DNA of 22,470 nucleotides from a virus. The stretch is taken from positions 1 to 22,470 of IMG/VR virus record IMGVR_UViG_3300027985_001273; one strand, written 5' to 3'. The position numbers were made by a program, and so were the translations under genes. Below the pieces are notes generated by a model. The model did not search any database, had not been told where the DNA came from, and saw only the letters and a list, made by a program, of their open reading frames with translations. Of this stretch, positions 416 to 21,696 are shown one piece after another (position 1 is the first letter of the stretch; every line of letters starts with the position of its first letter).

Positions 416-1984
416 TTAATTTTCTATTTCACTGCCGTCTTTGAATTTGAATATTAGCTTATCGTCTTTGGTAACTGTTACGGAATCAATTGTTGCCGTC
501 CATAAATCTATATCAAACTCGGTGAGAACTAATTGTCTGCTTGATATTTCGGAAATAAACCTATCAAGCAGAAGTGCCTTTGAATACCGCTCTCTACGCA
601 GGTTTTCAAGTTCGGTTATTTTTTCAGAGGCTGTTTTGTGTCGTAAAAGGTAGCTGTCATTTCGAGCATTAAACTCATCTTGGTTCATGGCGGTATGAGC
701 ATTTTCAAAGATTGCTTTTCTTGAAAGTTCAGCTACAATCTCCATTTCACGCTGTAATTCTGCAACCTCAATATTTAATGAATCACAATCACAAAGTATT
801 GTTTTTGCCAGTTCAATGTTGGCAAGGAGCTCATCTCGGCAGCCCATGAGCTTTGTAAATGCTCCAAGAAAGCGGTTTTTTAATTCTTCCTCGGTGATAT
901 GTGGCGTCTGACATTTTTCTTCACCCTTGTATTTATTGTTGCAACGCCAAATGATACGGCGGTATTTAGTGTTGCTACCCCATACCTTAGAACCATAATA
1001 TCCACCACAGTCCTCACATATAAGCCGAGCCGAAAATGGACTGGTACAGCTTGCTGGTCTGCCCAGATTCTTGCGTCGTTCAATTTCAACTTGTACTGCA
1101 TCAAACTCATCTGGCTCAATAATTGCAGGATGGCTGTTCTCGACATAATACTGAGGAATTTCACCATTGTTTGGTACACGCTTTTTTGTAAGGAAATCAA
1201 CCGTATAACCCTTTTGTAGCAAGGCATCACCTTTATATTTTTCATTTGTTAATATACTTCTAACAGTTTGCCAAGTGTCTTTGCCTGCTGGTGACGGTAT
1301 GCCGCTTTTTCCGAGGTGCTTTGCAATTGCCGATGGTGTTTTGCCCCCAATAAACATTCTAAAAATCGAGCGTACAATCTCTGCTTCTTGCTCTACAATT
1401 TCTGGCTGATCGTCTTCACCTTTTTTATAACCTAAAAACTGCTTGTATGCCATACTTACTTTGCCGTCCTGCATTCTTTTTCTTTGACCCCATGTAACAT
1501 TTTCTGAAATAGAACGGCTTTCTTCCTGTGCCAAAGAGGACATAATCGTAATAAGCAATTCGCCTTTGCTGTCCAAGGTGAAAATATTTTCTTTTTCAAA
1601 ATAAACCTCCACACCTTTTTCCTTAAGCTGTCGGACGGTTACAAGGCTATCCACGGTATTTCTTGCAAACCGTGATACCGATTTTGTAATGATAAGGTCT
1701 ATTTTACCATCCAGTGCATCTCCAATCATGTTATTAAACCCATCACGGTTTTTCGTAGAGGTAGCTGAAATGCCTTCATCAGTGTATACAGATAAAAAAG
1801 TCCAGTCTGCCCTCTCCTTGATGTACTTGGTATAATAATCAACCTGTGCCTCATAGCTTGTAAGCTGTTCATCTGAATCGGTAGAAACACGAGCATAGGC
1901 GGCTACTCTGCGTTTTATTGTAGAATTTCTAACAGAAGCACTTTGCCTTTGCAGGGTTGGAGGGATAACTCTAACATTCGCCAT
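416..1984 (-). CDS. Large serine recombinase with C-terminal coiled coil (integrase candidate)
   Basis: This 522-residue protein has the three-part architecture of large serine recombinases. The N-terminal resolvase fold carries the catalytic serine (Ser34) in YARVSTD, followed by DLIITKSVSRFARN and the QEESRSISENV helix. A central recombinase domain covers roughly residues 180-310. A zinc ribbon with CEDCGG and later WRCNN and C lies near 320-370. A long charged helical stretch at about 385-485 looks like the coiled coil that controls synapsis and directionality in phage integrases. The start ATG overlaps the end of the upstream recombinase by 14 bp and has an AAGGAGG site, suggesting coupled translation. 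It is the last gene before the host tRNA, so it is the best candidate for the enzyme that integrates and excises the prophage. Requirement for its partner is inferred. Confidence 0.93.
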   Translation of the reverse strand: MANVRVIPPTLQRQSASVRNSTIKRRVAAYARVSTDSDEQLTSYEAQVDYYTKYIKERADWTFLSVYTDEGISATSTKNRDGFNNMIGDALDGKIDLIITKSVSRFARNTVDSLVTVRQLKEKGVEVYFEKENIFTLDSKGELLITIMSSLAQEESRSISENVTWGQRKRMQDGKVSMAYKQFLGYKKGEDDQPEIVEQEAEIVRSIFRMFIGGKTPSAIAKHLGKSGIPSPAGKDTWQTVRSILTNEKYKGDALLQKGYTVDFLTKKRVPNNGEIPQYYVENSHPAIIEPDEFDAVQVEIERRKNLGRPASCTSPFSARLICEDCGGYYGSKVWGSNTKYRRIIWRCNNKYKGEEKCQTPHITEEELKNRFLGAFTKLMGCRDELLANIELAKTILCDCDSLNIEVAELQREMEIVAELSRKAIFENAHTAMNQDEFNARNDSYLLRHKTASEKITELENLRRERYSKALLLDRFISEISSRQLVLTEFDIDLWTATIDSVTVTKDDKLIFKFKDGSEIEN

Positions 1985-3287
1985 GATATCGCCTCCTTGC
2001 CTGTAACATTGCTTTTTCTTTCATTTCATCTGTCCAACTATCCTTGCGAGATGGGTTTTGCCAGGTTCGTGTTATTTCAGTTCCATCAAATAAAACAAAA
2101 ATAAGCACCCCATTATCTGGCACTTTAATGCAAAGAATTCTATCAGTGACTGCATGGGCATCATAATTTCCAAGCTCTAAAACATTGGTCGTTATGTCTT
2201 TTAAGATAGTTTCGGGAATTTGCCTTGCGTTGCATAAATCTCTGCCACGAGTATTGAAAGTAGCACAAGACCATACAATTTTAGCATATGGAGTTGAAGC
2301 ATTATTTGTTTTTCGCCTAAAATTAGCACCGCAGTTGCCGCATCTAATAATGCCCGTGTATTCAGATTGACCCACAATAGGCTTATTATTAACGCCTTCT
2401 TTTCTTCGCATTATTTCATCTTGCACTTTTTCAAAAGTGTTCATATCAATTATTGGTTCGTGCGTATCTTCTACATAAAACATTGGCAGTTCGCCACGAT
2501 TTTTTACAACCCTCTTTGTAAGGTGGTCGGTAGAATAAGATTTCTGTAGGAGCATATTTCCAGTCAACTTTTCGTTGGTTAGGATTTTGCTAATTACTGA
2601 TTCACCCCAACTTCCACCGTTTTTTGTTGGTACACCCAGGGTGCAAAGTTTACGCACAATTGCATTCTTGCCCATACCTCTTAAATAATCGGCATAAATC
2701 ATTTTTACAACTTCAGCTTCGGCTGGATTTACAATTAAATTGCCACACGCAAAATCATAACCGTACATTCTTAAAGTGTTCGGTATGCCCTTATTAAAGT
2801 TTTTTCTTAGCCGCCACTTGGTGTTTTCACTTGCCGACAGACTTTCTTCTTGAGCATATGACGCTAAAATTGTAAGCATTAACTCTCCATCGCCGCTGAG
2901 AGAATAAATATTTTCCTCTTCAAAATAAACCTCAACGCCGAGTGCTTTTAGTTCACGGACGGTTTTTAGCACAGTTACTGTGTTACGAGCAAAGCGTGAA
3001 ATGGATTTTGTAATGATTAAGTCAATATTGCCATTTTTGCATTGTTCAATCATTTTCTGAAATTCTGCTCTTGCTTCCTTTGTGCCAGTTGTTGCTTCAT
3101 CTGCAAACACCCCTGAATATTCCCATTCAGGTTGTCGCTGTATGTAGCTACTGTAATAACTGACCTGTGCTGCCAGTGAATGCAACATTGCTTCTTTTCC
3201 ACTTGACACTCTTGCATATGCACACACCCGTTTTCGAGTAGGCATTTTTGCATTTTGGTTTTCAATTTTTCTTATGGTTTTTTGCAT
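1971..3287 (-). CDS. Second large serine recombinase, lacking the coiled coil
   Basis: This 438-residue protein has the resolvase domain with catalytic Ser28 in YARVSSG, the DLIITKSISRFARN motif and the QEESLSASENT helix. A recombinase domain and a zinc ribbon (CGNCG, then WSC and C) follow. After the ribbon it passes almost directly to a short strand-like end (VPDNGVLIFVLFDG) that resembles the end of the neighbouring recombinase, so the roughly 100-residue charged helical insert is absent. The start at 3287 is chosen because GGAAGGAGG lies just upstream; an alternative start eight codons earlier has no such site. Tandem serine recombinases that act together are known for the ccrA/ccrB pair of staphylococcal cassettes. 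Whether this pair works jointly is inference. Confidence 0.92.
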   Translation of the reverse strand: MQKTIRKIENQNAKMPTRKRVCAYARVSSGKEAMLHSLAAQVSYYSSYIQRQPEWEYSGVFADEATTGTKEARAEFQKMIEQCKNGNIDLIITKSISRFARNTVTVLKTVRELKALGVEVYFEEENIYSLSGDGELMLTILASYAQEESLSASENTKWRLRKNFNKGIPNTLRMYGYDFACGNLIVNPAEAEVVKMIYADYLRGMGKNAIVRKLCTLGVPTKNGGSWGESVISKILTNEKLTGNMLLQKSYSTDHLTKRVVKNRGELPMFYVEDTHEPIIDMNTFEKVQDEIMRRKEGVNNKPIVGQSEYTGIIRCGNCGANFRRKTNNASTPYAKIVWSCATFNTRGRDLCNARQIPETILKDITTNVLELGNYDAHAVTDRILCIKVPDNGVLIFVLFDGTEITRTWQNPSRKDSWTDEMKEKAMLQARRRYHGEC

Positions 3288-3346
3288 AAAATCCTCCTTC
3301 CGTAGTGTCACATATTACCGCTAAACCACCATAATATCAACGATTT

Positions 3347-19085: not shown

Positions 19086-19120
19086 GGAAAAAGAAAAGCA
19101 CACACTTTGTAGTGAATGCT
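19086..19120 (-). terminator. Candidate terminator of the small membrane-protein gene
   Basis: The 10-base arms 97-106 and 111-120 (of 19,000) pair around a TTGT loop, with one G-U and one mismatch. The minus-strand transcript then enters a T-rich run with a CTTTTT pattern. It begins about 26 bases after the membrane-protein stop codon and ends 24 bases before the portal start, so it would be leaky to late transcription. Confidence 0.5.
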
Positions 19121-19145
19121 TAACTAAACATTATAAAAAATTGTA

Positions 19146-19343
19146 TTACCGTGGACTAAGATTTAACTCAAATCCTTGATACTTACACGACACACTGTAC
19201 TTGCAATTAACTAAATACAAAACAACACCTGCACCAACCAAGATTGTTAAAACTTTTATTGACTCTGTCTTTGTAATACTTGAAAAGATTTTGCTTGTTG
19301 CAGAATTCGATGTAACTTCTTTAAGTATGTTTTGACTACACAT
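19146..19343 (-). CDS. Small single-pass membrane protein of the inserted cassette
   Basis: This 65-residue protein has a polar Ser/Thr-rich N-terminus, one hydrophobic segment at about 29-46 (IKVLTILVGAGVVLYLVN) and a short C-terminal tail (KYSVSCKYQGFELNLSPR) that could form strands outside the membrane. Cysteines are at 2, 47 and 53. It has an excellent AAGGAGG site seven bases before ATG. No homolog is recognised and no holin, spanin or known toxin motif is seen. Small membrane proteins of prophages often act in superinfection exclusion or as toxins, but here that is only a hypothesis from location and size. Confidence 0.7.
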   Translation of the reverse strand: MCSQNILKEVTSNSATSKIFSSITKTESIKVLTILVGAGVVLYLVNCKYSVSCKYQGFELNLSPR

Positions 19344-19372
19344 TTTATAATCCTCCTTATTTATGACCCATG

Positions 19373-19401
19373 TTGATTTTTCTTATAAATCTCTGTATAC
19401 T
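19373..19401 (+). promoter_or_regulatory. Predicted promoter of the plus-strand HTH gene
   Basis: TTGATT (19373-19378) and TATACT (19396-19401) are separated by 17 bp, a near-ideal housekeeping-type promoter. The start point would be near 19408, giving a leader of about 70 bases before ATG at 19478. Confidence 0.7.
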
Positions 19402-19459
19402 ATATATTATAGATGATATTTTATTTTTGAATATAGTCAAATATGGGATAAATGTCCCA
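19400..19459. promoter_or_regulatory. Three operator-like palindromes in the divergent control region
   Basis: CTATA-N3-TATAG (19400-19412) covers both predicted start regions. TTTGA-N6-TCAAA (19426-19441) covers the minus-strand -35 region. TGGGA-N6-TCCCA (19444-19459) is within the plus-strand leader. The last two share a 5-6-5 geometry and are 18 bp apart centre to centre. Binding by the adjacent HTH protein is inferred. Confidence 0.4.
19406..19440 (-). promoter_or_regulatory. Predicted promoter of the small membrane-protein gene
   Basis: On the minus strand TTGACT (19440-19435) is followed after 16 bp by TATCAT (19418-19413). A TATAAT at 19411-19406 lies 23 bp from that -35 and is less likely to pair with it. 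Either choice puts the start near 19399-19406, facing and overlapping the plus-strand promoter. Confidence 0.5.
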
Positions 19460-19477
19460 GTTTATTAGGAGGAATAT

Positions 19478-20062
19478 ATGAGCCGTAATAAAATGGAAAA
19501 AGTGCCAATCAGCCGTGAATTGCTTCAAATAGCTTTAAAAAGAAAAAAATTGAGTATTAATAAGATTACCGATGAAGAAAACAACCTAATTGACGGTATT
19601 TCAAGAAAAACTATAACTCGTGCGCTTCATGACGGGGTTATCAATCCCACATTTCTTGATAAAATAGCCGAAATATTAGATGTCGACCCTCATTGGTTAT
19701 CCGGTAAAGACTTGAAACTATTTCCTTGGTTAAAGAATAATTCTGAATATTGTAAAATCGAAAATCACCCTTACGATGCCATTCGTCAACAACAAAAAGG
19801 TATTAATTTTACCAATTACTTTAAAAATCTATTATTATTGCAAGGTGTTTCTTTTAAACAATTTGAGGCTCTTTCAGAGGAAAAGCAACATGGGTTCGAG
19901 ATGGAACTTGACTTAGCGATTAAAATGGTGATATTTAAACATTTTTCTCAAAATGCAACTGATGATGATTTATTTTTGTCGAACAAAGAATTGTATAATA
20001 AATCGTGTGCAGTGTTATCTGGAGAAATATATGATGAATTGTTCAATTTGCTTGAAGCTTAA
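19478..20062 (+). CDS. XRE-like HTH protein of the inserted cassette (only plus-strand gene)
   Basis: This 194-residue protein has an N-terminal helix-turn-helix-like domain (about 12-76): RELLQIALKRKKLSINKITD, a Lys/Ile-rich second helix region, SRKTITRALHDGVINPTFLD and IAEILDVDPHWLSGK, the last being typical of the end of XRE-type domains. Residues about 80-194 are helical, unfamiliar, and lack a recognised peptidase, membrane or metal motif. An AGGAGG site lies five bases before ATG. Codons are strikingly AT-rich compared with the structural genes, suggesting separate acquisition. It lies antisense to late transcription and its stop codon touches the terminase stop codon. It likely regulates itself and the divergent membrane-protein gene; whether it has an additional effector role is unknown. 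Confidence 0.75.
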   Translation: MSRNKMEKVPISRELLQIALKRKKLSINKITDEENNLIDGISRKTITRALHDGVINPTFLDKIAEILDVDPHWLSGKDLKLFPWLKNNSEYCKIENHPYDAIRQQQKGINFTNYFKNLLLLQGVSFKQFEALSEEKQHGFEMELDLAIKMVIFKHFSQNATDDDLFLSNKELYNKSCAVLSGEIYDELFNLLEA

Positions 20063-21673
20063 TTATATAAATAAAATTCCTCTATCATCATAGACACTCG
20101 CACTATTATCATTTCCACATCGAATGGCTCTATCAAGTGCCATAATTGTTGCTACAGCTCCATCAATTTTCTCTGTGCTTTTTTCTTTATCAGGCTTAAT
20201 GTTTCCCGCTGGGTCTGTGCGAATAAAGATGTTATCCATCATCCAACGTAAGACAGGATGACCACCATGAGCAAGTTTTTCCTCAAGAGTCAGTTTCATA
20301 AGTTCCTTTGTTGGTGGAGACATATCTTTAAAACCTTGACCGAATGGAATGACTGTAAATCCTAACCCTTCAAGGTTTTGTACCATCTGCACAGCGCCCC
20401 AACGGTCAAAGGCAATTTCTCGTATGTTGTATTTCATGCCAAGTTGCTCAATGAAATGCTCAATGTATCCGTAATGAACCACATTACCCTCGGTAGTAAG
20501 CAGATGACCTTGCTTTTCCCATAAATCATAAGGCACATGGTCTCGCCTTACACGCAGGTCAATATTATCTTCCGGTATCCAAAAGTATGGTAAAACATGA
20601 TATTTATCATCTTCATCAATCGGTGGAAACACTAAAACAAATGCTGTTATATCTGTACTACTCGAAAGATCAAGTCCACCATAGCAAACTCTGCCTTTTA
20701 ATTCGTCTGGGTCAACCACAAATGCGCATTTATCCCATTTCTCCATCGGCATCCAACGCACAGCTTGTTTAACCCATTGGTTAAGACGGAGCTGTCTGAA
20801 CGAATTTTCCTCAGCTGGGTTTTGTTTTGCTGATTCACAGGCAGCCTTTACTTTATCTATCCCCACTGTTATTCCAAGTGACGGGTTGGCTTTTTTCCAT
20901 ATTTTTGGGTCTGTCCAATCATCCTCCTGAGCCGCACCGTAAATTACAGGGTAGAAAGTAGGGTCATGCTTTCTGCCTTCAAGAATATCAAGTGCCTTTT
21001 GATGCACTTCCCAGCAAATACTGTTTTGGTTATCTCCAGCTGTGGTTATAAGGAAATAAAGTGGCTGCATTCGAGCATCGCCTGATCCTTTGGTCATAAC
21101 ATCGTATAGCTTTCGGTTCGGCTGGGTATGCAGCTCATCAAAAATAACTCCGTGTGTGTTGAACCCGTGCTTGTTTGCTACATCTGCCGATAATACTTGA
21201 TAATAACTATTTGTAGGAAGATATATAAGCCGTTTTTGCGACTCTAATATTTTTACCCTTTTGCTAAGTGCAGGGCTTAACCGAACCATATCAACAGCCA
21301 CATCAAATACAATCTTTGCTTGATTTCGGTCTGCTGCACAGCCGTAAACTTCAGCGCGTTCCTCACCATCACCACAGGTAAGTAGTAAGGCAACTGCCGC
21401 CGCAAGCTCACTTTTGCCCATTTTCTTTGGAATTTCAACATAAGCAGTGTTGAACTGACGGTAGCCATTCGACTTTAAAGTTCCAAAAACATCACGAATA
21501 ATCTGTTCTTGCCAGTCTATAAGTTCAAACGGCTTACCAGACCAAGTGCCTTTTGTATGCTTTAGAGATTCAATAAACGCCACAGCGAAGTCAGAGGTGG
21601 CCTTATCATAAACAGAATCATTTGCCTTAAACTGTGTGGGAATATATTTCTTAAGTTTTCGTATAGTAGCCAC
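20063..21673 (-). CDS. Terminase large subunit
   Basis: This protein, drawn here as 536 residues, is the packaging motor and nuclease. It has the Walker A-like IPKKMGKSELA, a Walker B VIFDELHTQPN, the coupling region LITTAGDN, and RNase H-fold nuclease acidic residues in GGLDLSSSTDITAF, with candidate later acids in EIAFDRWGA and STEKIDGAVA. Drawn from the GTG at 21673, the nearest accepted start. The AAGGAGG site at 21673-21679 overlaps that codon, so initiation there is unlikely; the well-spaced codon is ATA at 21662-21664 (residue 4 of this drawing), giving an RKLKKYIPT start as expected for the family. The C-terminus (VYDDRGILFI) looks intact despite the adjacent insertion. Confidence 0.95.
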   Translation of the reverse strand: MATIRKLKKYIPTQFKANDSVYDKATSDFAVAFIESLKHTKGTWSGKPFELIDWQEQIIRDVFGTLKSNGYRQFNTAYVEIPKKMGKSELAAAVALLLTCGDGEERAEVYGCAADRNQAKIVFDVAVDMVRLSPALSKRVKILESQKRLIYLPTNSYYQVLSADVANKHGFNTHGVIFDELHTQPNRKLYDVMTKGSGDARMQPLYFLITTAGDNQNSICWEVHQKALDILEGRKHDPTFYPVIYGAAQEDDWTDPKIWKKANPSLGITVGIDKVKAACESAKQNPAEENSFRQLRLNQWVKQAVRWMPMEKWDKCAFVVDPDELKGRVCYGGLDLSSSTDITAFVLVFPPIDEDDKYHVLPYFWIPEDNIDLRVRRDHVPYDLWEKQGHLLTTEGNVVHYGYIEHFIEQLGMKYNIREIAFDRWGAVQMVQNLEGLGFTVIPFGQGFKDMSPPTKELMKLTLEEKLAHGGHPVLRWMMDNIFIRTDPAGNIKPDKEKSTEKIDGAVATIMALDRAIRCGNDNSASVYDDRGILFI

Positions 21674-21696
21674 CTCCTTCAAATGAGCATAAGAAA

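Follow-up and report, generated by a model that had tools for sequence, protein, structure and literature searches.

A putative bidirectional promoter shared by a Cro/CI-like regulator gene and a small membrane-protein gene in the terL-portal slot of a Clostridia-type phage

Introduction

In bacteria, divergent genes can share a single bidirectional promoter, an arrangement described by Warman et al. (2021, Nat Microbiol, as cited in PMC10268837) and Warman et al. (2026, PMC12825309). Transcription starts usually lie 7-25 bp apart in such promoters, the symmetry of the -10 region drives both directions, and the polymerases sterically exclude each other (PMC12825309, PMC10268837). In Escherichia coli, the two directions usually compete strongly only after activation of one of them, their basal activity being too low otherwise (PMC12825309). 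The acrAB/acrR pair is an example, with a shared near-symmetric -10 region, divergent messages, close starts, and steric exclusion, and with the genes of an autorepressor and of its target flanking the region. In phages, the CI/MOR system of lactococcal phage TP901-1 combines an HTH repressor gene and a small gene with divergent promoters in a short intergenic region; both products are repressors there, and two heritable states result (PMC7250872). Finally, phage morons or lysogenic-conversion cassettes, such as pid of P22, are extra late-region genes absent from close relatives (PMC3573128).

The locus described here bears a likeness to each of these. As at acrAB/acrR, a regulator gene and its putative target diverge from a shared near-symmetric region, but here the pair is prophage-borne, the regulator is Cro/CI-like rather than of the TetR type, and the starts are predicted. 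Its divergent HTH gene and small gene recall CI/MOR, whereas the partner is a putative membrane protein and the pair is late-region cargo. As with pid, the genes are an addition to the late region, yet here the cassette has its own regulator and a conserved candidate operator, and recurs with different partners. We put the probability at roughly two in three that it is an autoregulated repressor and cargo pair in a variable terL-portal slot, with a shared bidirectional promoter subject to polymerase exclusion and two-operator control.

Genomic context and the divergent partner

The window (the whole stretch of DNA analyzed, a virus record of 22,470 bases) carries serine recombinase genes, structural genes, and a terminase/portal region, and belongs to a Clostridia-type phage. 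Two extra genes lie between terL and the portal gene (Table 1), encoding a 194-aa HTH protein and a 65-aa protein with a single hydrophobic span. Their start codons are 134 bp apart, and the promoters discussed below sit in that gap.

We fetched 160 terminase relatives and counted the 153 with a recognizable portal gene or match. In roughly half of these 153, terL is joined directly to the portal gene, and unrelated genes are inserted in the rest, so that the gap ranges from an overlap up to 2.7 kb. The inserts, labeled by our reading of their sequences, comprise toxin-antitoxin-like pairs, HigBA-like pairs, Fic-like proteins, nucleotidyltransferases, an rRNA methyltransferase-like gene, membrane proteins, and others; homologs of the HTH or 65-aa gene were found in none of the slots of these terminase relatives. 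Since the slot is variable and filled with unrelated inserts, we regard the window pair as cargo; as is typical of morons, related phages lack the extra genes at this position.

The terL-portal junction of this large phage group (loci L002-L161; positions 19102-20062 of the window) is a cargo hot spot. Putative antibiotic-resistance genes also occur in the slot, namely a nucleotidyltransferase (in Erysipelothrix phage phi1605, L025/L030, and L132), an ABC-F-like gene (in L132), and an rRNA methyltransferase-like gene (in L153). On one side of the phage fragment, the window contains two tandem overlapping serine recombinase genes (416-3311, minus strand), and a tandem pair resembling these adjoins the module in L172.

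The membrane span of the 65-aa partner was read from its sequence. The protein had no match above threshold in PHROGs, NCBIfam, or Pfam, and none in PADLOC. Its C-tail resembles those of the partners in L165 (GKFFGLEFNLCPHK) and L190 (FGTFSLSPR), and perhaps L178 and L162 also encode membrane partners with a similar short tail. In L163 and L172, the partner is a different membrane protein with a C-terminal span, and in L179 and L180 the partners have no evident membrane span. A scan of this stretch for minus-strand terminator-like sites gave none, and late transcription may therefore run through the membrane-protein gene as well.

Table 1. Positions of the genes and sequence elements in and around the divergent gap of the window
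Feature	Position	Strand	Remarks
Portal gene	17800 to at most 19101	minus	
Divergent partner gene	19146-19343	minus	65 aa; one predicted membrane span (about residues 29-46); C-tail YSVSCKYQGFELNLSPR
Left motif copy TATTTATGACCCAT	19358-19371	plus	Probable HTH-protein operator; just upstream of the plus -35
Plus promoter-like TTGATT-N17-TATACT (9/12)	19373-19401	plus	For the HTH gene; predicted start ~19408
Near-symmetric core TATACTATATATTATAG	19396-19412		-10 elements for both strands
Palindrome CTATA-N3-TATAG	19400-19412		Exact match present
Alternative minus -10 TATAAT	19411-19406	minus	Predicted start ~19399; without a good -35 in the window
Minus promoter-like TTGACT-N16-TATCAT (10/12)	19440-19413	minus	For the membrane-protein gene; predicted start ~19406
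5-6-5 palindrome TTTGA-N6-TCAAA	19426-19441		Exact match present
5-6-5 palindrome TGGGA-N6-TCCCA	19444-19459		Overlaps the right motif copy; also a weak terminator-like hairpin
Right motif copy GATAAATGTCCCAG	19447-19460	plus	Probable HTH-protein operator; ends 17 nt before the HTH start codon
HTH regulator gene	19478-20062	plus	194 aa; Cro/CI-like N-terminal part; C-terminal part without an assigned family
terL	20063-21682	minus	

An uncatalogued regulator family

The window HTH protein resembles Pfam families HTH_3 (E 0.0092) and HTH_26 (E 0.047) below the gathering score, and the best values within its family are 0.0055 and 0.0013, respectively. It also matches PHROG 8 (E 1.9e-4) and, by profile, PDB 3bs3 (E 0.0025). 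A fold search returned low-confidence, Cro/CI-like top hits and no match at E <= 0.001, and the predicted structure (mean pLDDT 57.6) is too weak to identify the C-terminal part. The family is uncatalogued, probably Cro/CI-like, and without a name in the searched libraries. In the family alignment, the Cro/CI-like N-terminal part reads KTIxRxLxDGxIxPxLLDRIGKxLDVDPxYLSGxYD, and the C-terminal part FPY ... YFxxLLxxNxISxEQFxAL ... FQxDLxxAIxxVIxKYF.

Single-sequence scans for close relatives of either protein gave no match in viral/genome contigs, phages, or plasmids, and relatives of the HTH protein were found only by genome-by-genome and profile searches. They occur in other viral records and Firmicutes-type genomes at ~30% identity (58% for L165/L171), and the family is present in about 1% of the searched genomes (Clostridia/Firmicutes-type). 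Weak HTH hits in L166, L174, and L181 were not taken as members, and neither L191 (without the N-terminal part) nor L188 (nearly identical to L163) was counted.

All full-length members have a divergent gene close upstream of the HTH gene, usually one for a small membrane protein. The surroundings of the module vary (serine recombinases, HNH-type genes, or host-like genes on both sides), and it therefore moves as a unit or has repeatedly been captured. L163 and L188, which come from different genomes, share a nearly identical module and adjacent serine recombinase, and this near-identity suggests a recent transfer of the element.

Overlapping promoter-like elements and a near-symmetric core

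Promoter-like elements stand on both strands of the gap and overlap, just as the first-pass annotation had placed them, and the arrangement recurs in relatives. The plus element is kept in L165 in its spacing and -10, and L179 has one of the same type (TTGATT-N17-TATTAT). The minus element has a weaker counterpart in L165 (TTGTCA-N16-AATACT). Relatives favor TATAAT, a hexamer that ranks first or appears among the listed minus -10 candidates in L165, L178, L179, L180, and L190, but the window lacks a good -35 for it, and both candidates are therefore kept. With TATCAT, the predicted starts in the window would be 2 bp apart, outside the usual range for bidirectional promoters, whereas TATAAT would give 9 bp; the predicted separation is 12-21 bp in L162, L163, L172, L178, L179, and L180, and 38 bp in L190. 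The core that holds the -10 elements keeps 16 of its 17 bases in L165, and ATTATA is present in six of seven loci.

How far does this exceed chance? A consensus face-to-face pair arises in 7% of window shuffles, and under graded scoring 0.3% of shuffles equal the strength of the window pair in a face-to-face position. Under one scoring scheme, the top-scoring promoters on the HTH and partner strands overlap in face-to-face orientation at each of the eight loci first analyzed; the L180 pair approaches consensus on both strands (TGGACA-N17-TATAAT and TTGACA-N17-TATAAT). Of seven non-redundant loci, six have a face-to-face pair with both scores at 7.4 or higher, compared with 3 of 72 control divergent intergenic regions. 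These figures are indicative, since general knowledge supplied the promoter matrix, and the loci had already been seen when the offset range and score cut were fixed. Several observations weigh against the main reading: about one in four shuffles and one in three controls show the face-to-face offset by itself, and the L165 promoters are weak. Those of L190 interleave at a different offset, yet they occupy the same DNA. At the sequence level, the gap has the overlapping opposite-strand promoters and pseudo-symmetric -10 region by which bidirectional promoters are recognized.

The same annotation had made three palindromes part of its candidate switch. All three are there as described, but they are not supported as control sites, being neither above chance level nor conserved: five exact arm-5 palindromes were observed against 3.9 in shuffles (P 0.36), the two 5-6-5 palindromes have P 0.09, and L165 has CTATG-N3-TATAG in place of CTATA-N3-TATAG and lacks both 5-6-5 palindromes. 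TGGGA-N6-TCCCA was a partial hit since it overlaps the right copy of the conserved motif described below. The weak terminator-like hairpin at the same place was rejected as well, as it is not kept in L165.

A directed motif as candidate operator

When the intergenic regions are compared, the element conserved across loci proves to be a 14-bp motif with a direction, WWWWAATGTCCGC. All nine loci have a copy 6-19 nt ahead of the HTH start codon, the placement beside its own gene across homologs that one looks for in an autorepressor site, and eight of the nine carry a second copy in the same orientation elsewhere in the intergenic region, L190 having a single copy. The left copy of the window has the same position in L165. 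The hexamer ATGTCC occurs nine times on the HTH strand of seven non-redundant intergenic regions, where 0.3 are expected and at most two were seen in 500 shuffles. When a matrix built without the window was run over all 14-mers on both strands of its 22.5 kb, the right copy ranked fourth and the left tenth; within the gap, they came first and second. L190, which did not enter the matrix, agrees with the prediction: the highest-scoring site in its 6 kb stands 15 nt ahead of the HTH start.

Dyad operators are expected for Cro/CI-like proteins. A dyad GGNC-N6-GTCC surrounds the motif in several relatives (29 matches against 14.0, sd 3.1). Two points count against the main reading here: the window clade has no operator dyad symmetry but the right half only, and the left window copy is degenerate (GACC).

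The placement of the copies falls into different classes. The bidirectional promoter is flanked by the two copies in the window, L165, and L162. The first copy of L163, L172, and L179 coincides with the predicted HTH start or follows it closely, and that of L180 falls between -35 and -10. The copies are 32-33 bp (~3 helical turns) apart in L163/L172/L179 and 70-110 bp apart in window/L165/L162/L178/L180, a difference that might stem from looping or from two binding modes. A leader peptide starting from the ATG of the motif was considered and rejected, since its reading frame varies among loci.

Proposed regulation and rival explanations

We picture a two-gene cargo module occupying the variable terL-portal slot of a Clostridia-type prophage, from which a Cro/CI-like regulator and a small membrane protein would be transcribed divergently by one bidirectional promoter. 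As the promoter elements of the two strands interleave, RNA polymerase would sit in one direction at a time, and the overlap, recurring across the family, supports the first-pass view that both promoters can hardly be used at the same instant. The regulator most likely binds the two same-orientation WWWWAATGTCCGC-type operators, each of which would lie in the leader of one gene, just upstream of the promoter of the other. Binding at the right copy most likely represses the HTH gene itself (as a roadblock), and binding at the left copy most likely represses the membrane-protein gene, so both genes would be expressed at a low level in the lysogen. The membrane protein may serve as lysogenic-conversion, exclusion, or toxic cargo. 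Overlapping promoters recur and the motif always stands beside the HTH gene, which makes control by the HTH protein, as proposed earlier, a good inference, although probably not mainly through the palindromes. In L163, L172, L179, and L180, the motif sits within promoters or at start points, positions that fit repression directly.

Those positions also bear on the sign of regulation. The HTH protein could instead act like SoxS at acrA/acrR, activating one direction and so shutting off the opposite one through competition between polymerases. The left copy lies directly upstream of the plus -35 in both the window and L165, its center near -43 in the window being close to an activator position beside -35, and activation-driven competition is documented at bidirectional promoters (PMC12825309). 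We nevertheless consider this unlikely, as only one position class fits activation and the motif placement in the four loci just named would repress. The word switch, used in the first-pass annotation for mutually exclusive expression, is harder to sustain: at bidirectional promoters of E. coli, competition at the basal level is weak, and exclusion matters once one direction is activated (PMC12825309). A true two-state switch, in which strong expression of the regulator and strong expression of the membrane protein are mutually exclusive and either state is maintained, would agree with overlapping promoters and a probably autoregulating HTH gene, but is highly improbable given this weak basal competition. 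Moreover, only one product looks DNA-binding (the partner shows no DNA-binding domain), which leaves no mutual protein repression as in CI/MOR or CI/Cro. Being cargo between terL and the portal gene, with the module elsewhere in relatives, the pair is probably not the lysis-lysogeny switch of the phage.

Control at another level is about as improbable, namely that the right motif copy acts as a translational element in the HTH messenger RNA. The distance from motif to HTH start (6-19 nt) is indeed better kept than that from motif to promoter, but in the window, L165, and L162 the second copy precedes the predicted HTH start, so that the HTH transcript would not contain it, and in the partner's leader it is on the opposite strand; searches gave no Rfam match above threshold and no conserved hairpin. 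We give very little credence to an AT-rich spacer that merely mimics promoters and palindromes without a regulatory role: in the window alone, palindromes and consensus promoter pairs are near shuffle expectation, but the layout recurs in relatives and the motif is enriched. A different kind of proposal concerns the role of the cargo and is compatible with the repressor-cargo reading. The pair might be a toxin-antitoxin-like or superinfection-exclusion module, in which the regulator restrains a membrane-active protein until phage challenge or loss of the regulator. Most loci encode small single-span membrane partners and toxin-antitoxin-like genes occupy the same slot in other phages; on the other hand, the database searches of the partner described above and the L179 and L180 partners lacking an evident span speak against it, and we hold it as a tentative suggestion.

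Significance and future perspective

The layout is real in a comparative sense and, as a putative autoregulated repressor-cargo pair on a bidirectional promoter, ordinary in kind; novelty lies in the regulator family with its candidate operator and in the way partner genes are exchanged. For a family without a name in the searched libraries, the motif provides a testable operator, and, beyond the enterobacteria in which bidirectional promoters have mostly been studied, the loci offer a natural series of them in phage cargo. Genes divergent to the regulator behind the AATGTCCGC motif also offer a route to small phage membrane proteins of unassigned kind. Effectors found with the family already include at least two types of membrane proteins plus soluble ones. 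It is possible, though we would not favor it at present, that the module is a mobile regulatory cassette, consisting of the regulator family, a strand-directed and directly repeated operator, an embedded bidirectional promoter, and swapped small effectors. If so, any cargo would automatically come under the same autoregulated, polymerase-exclusion control.
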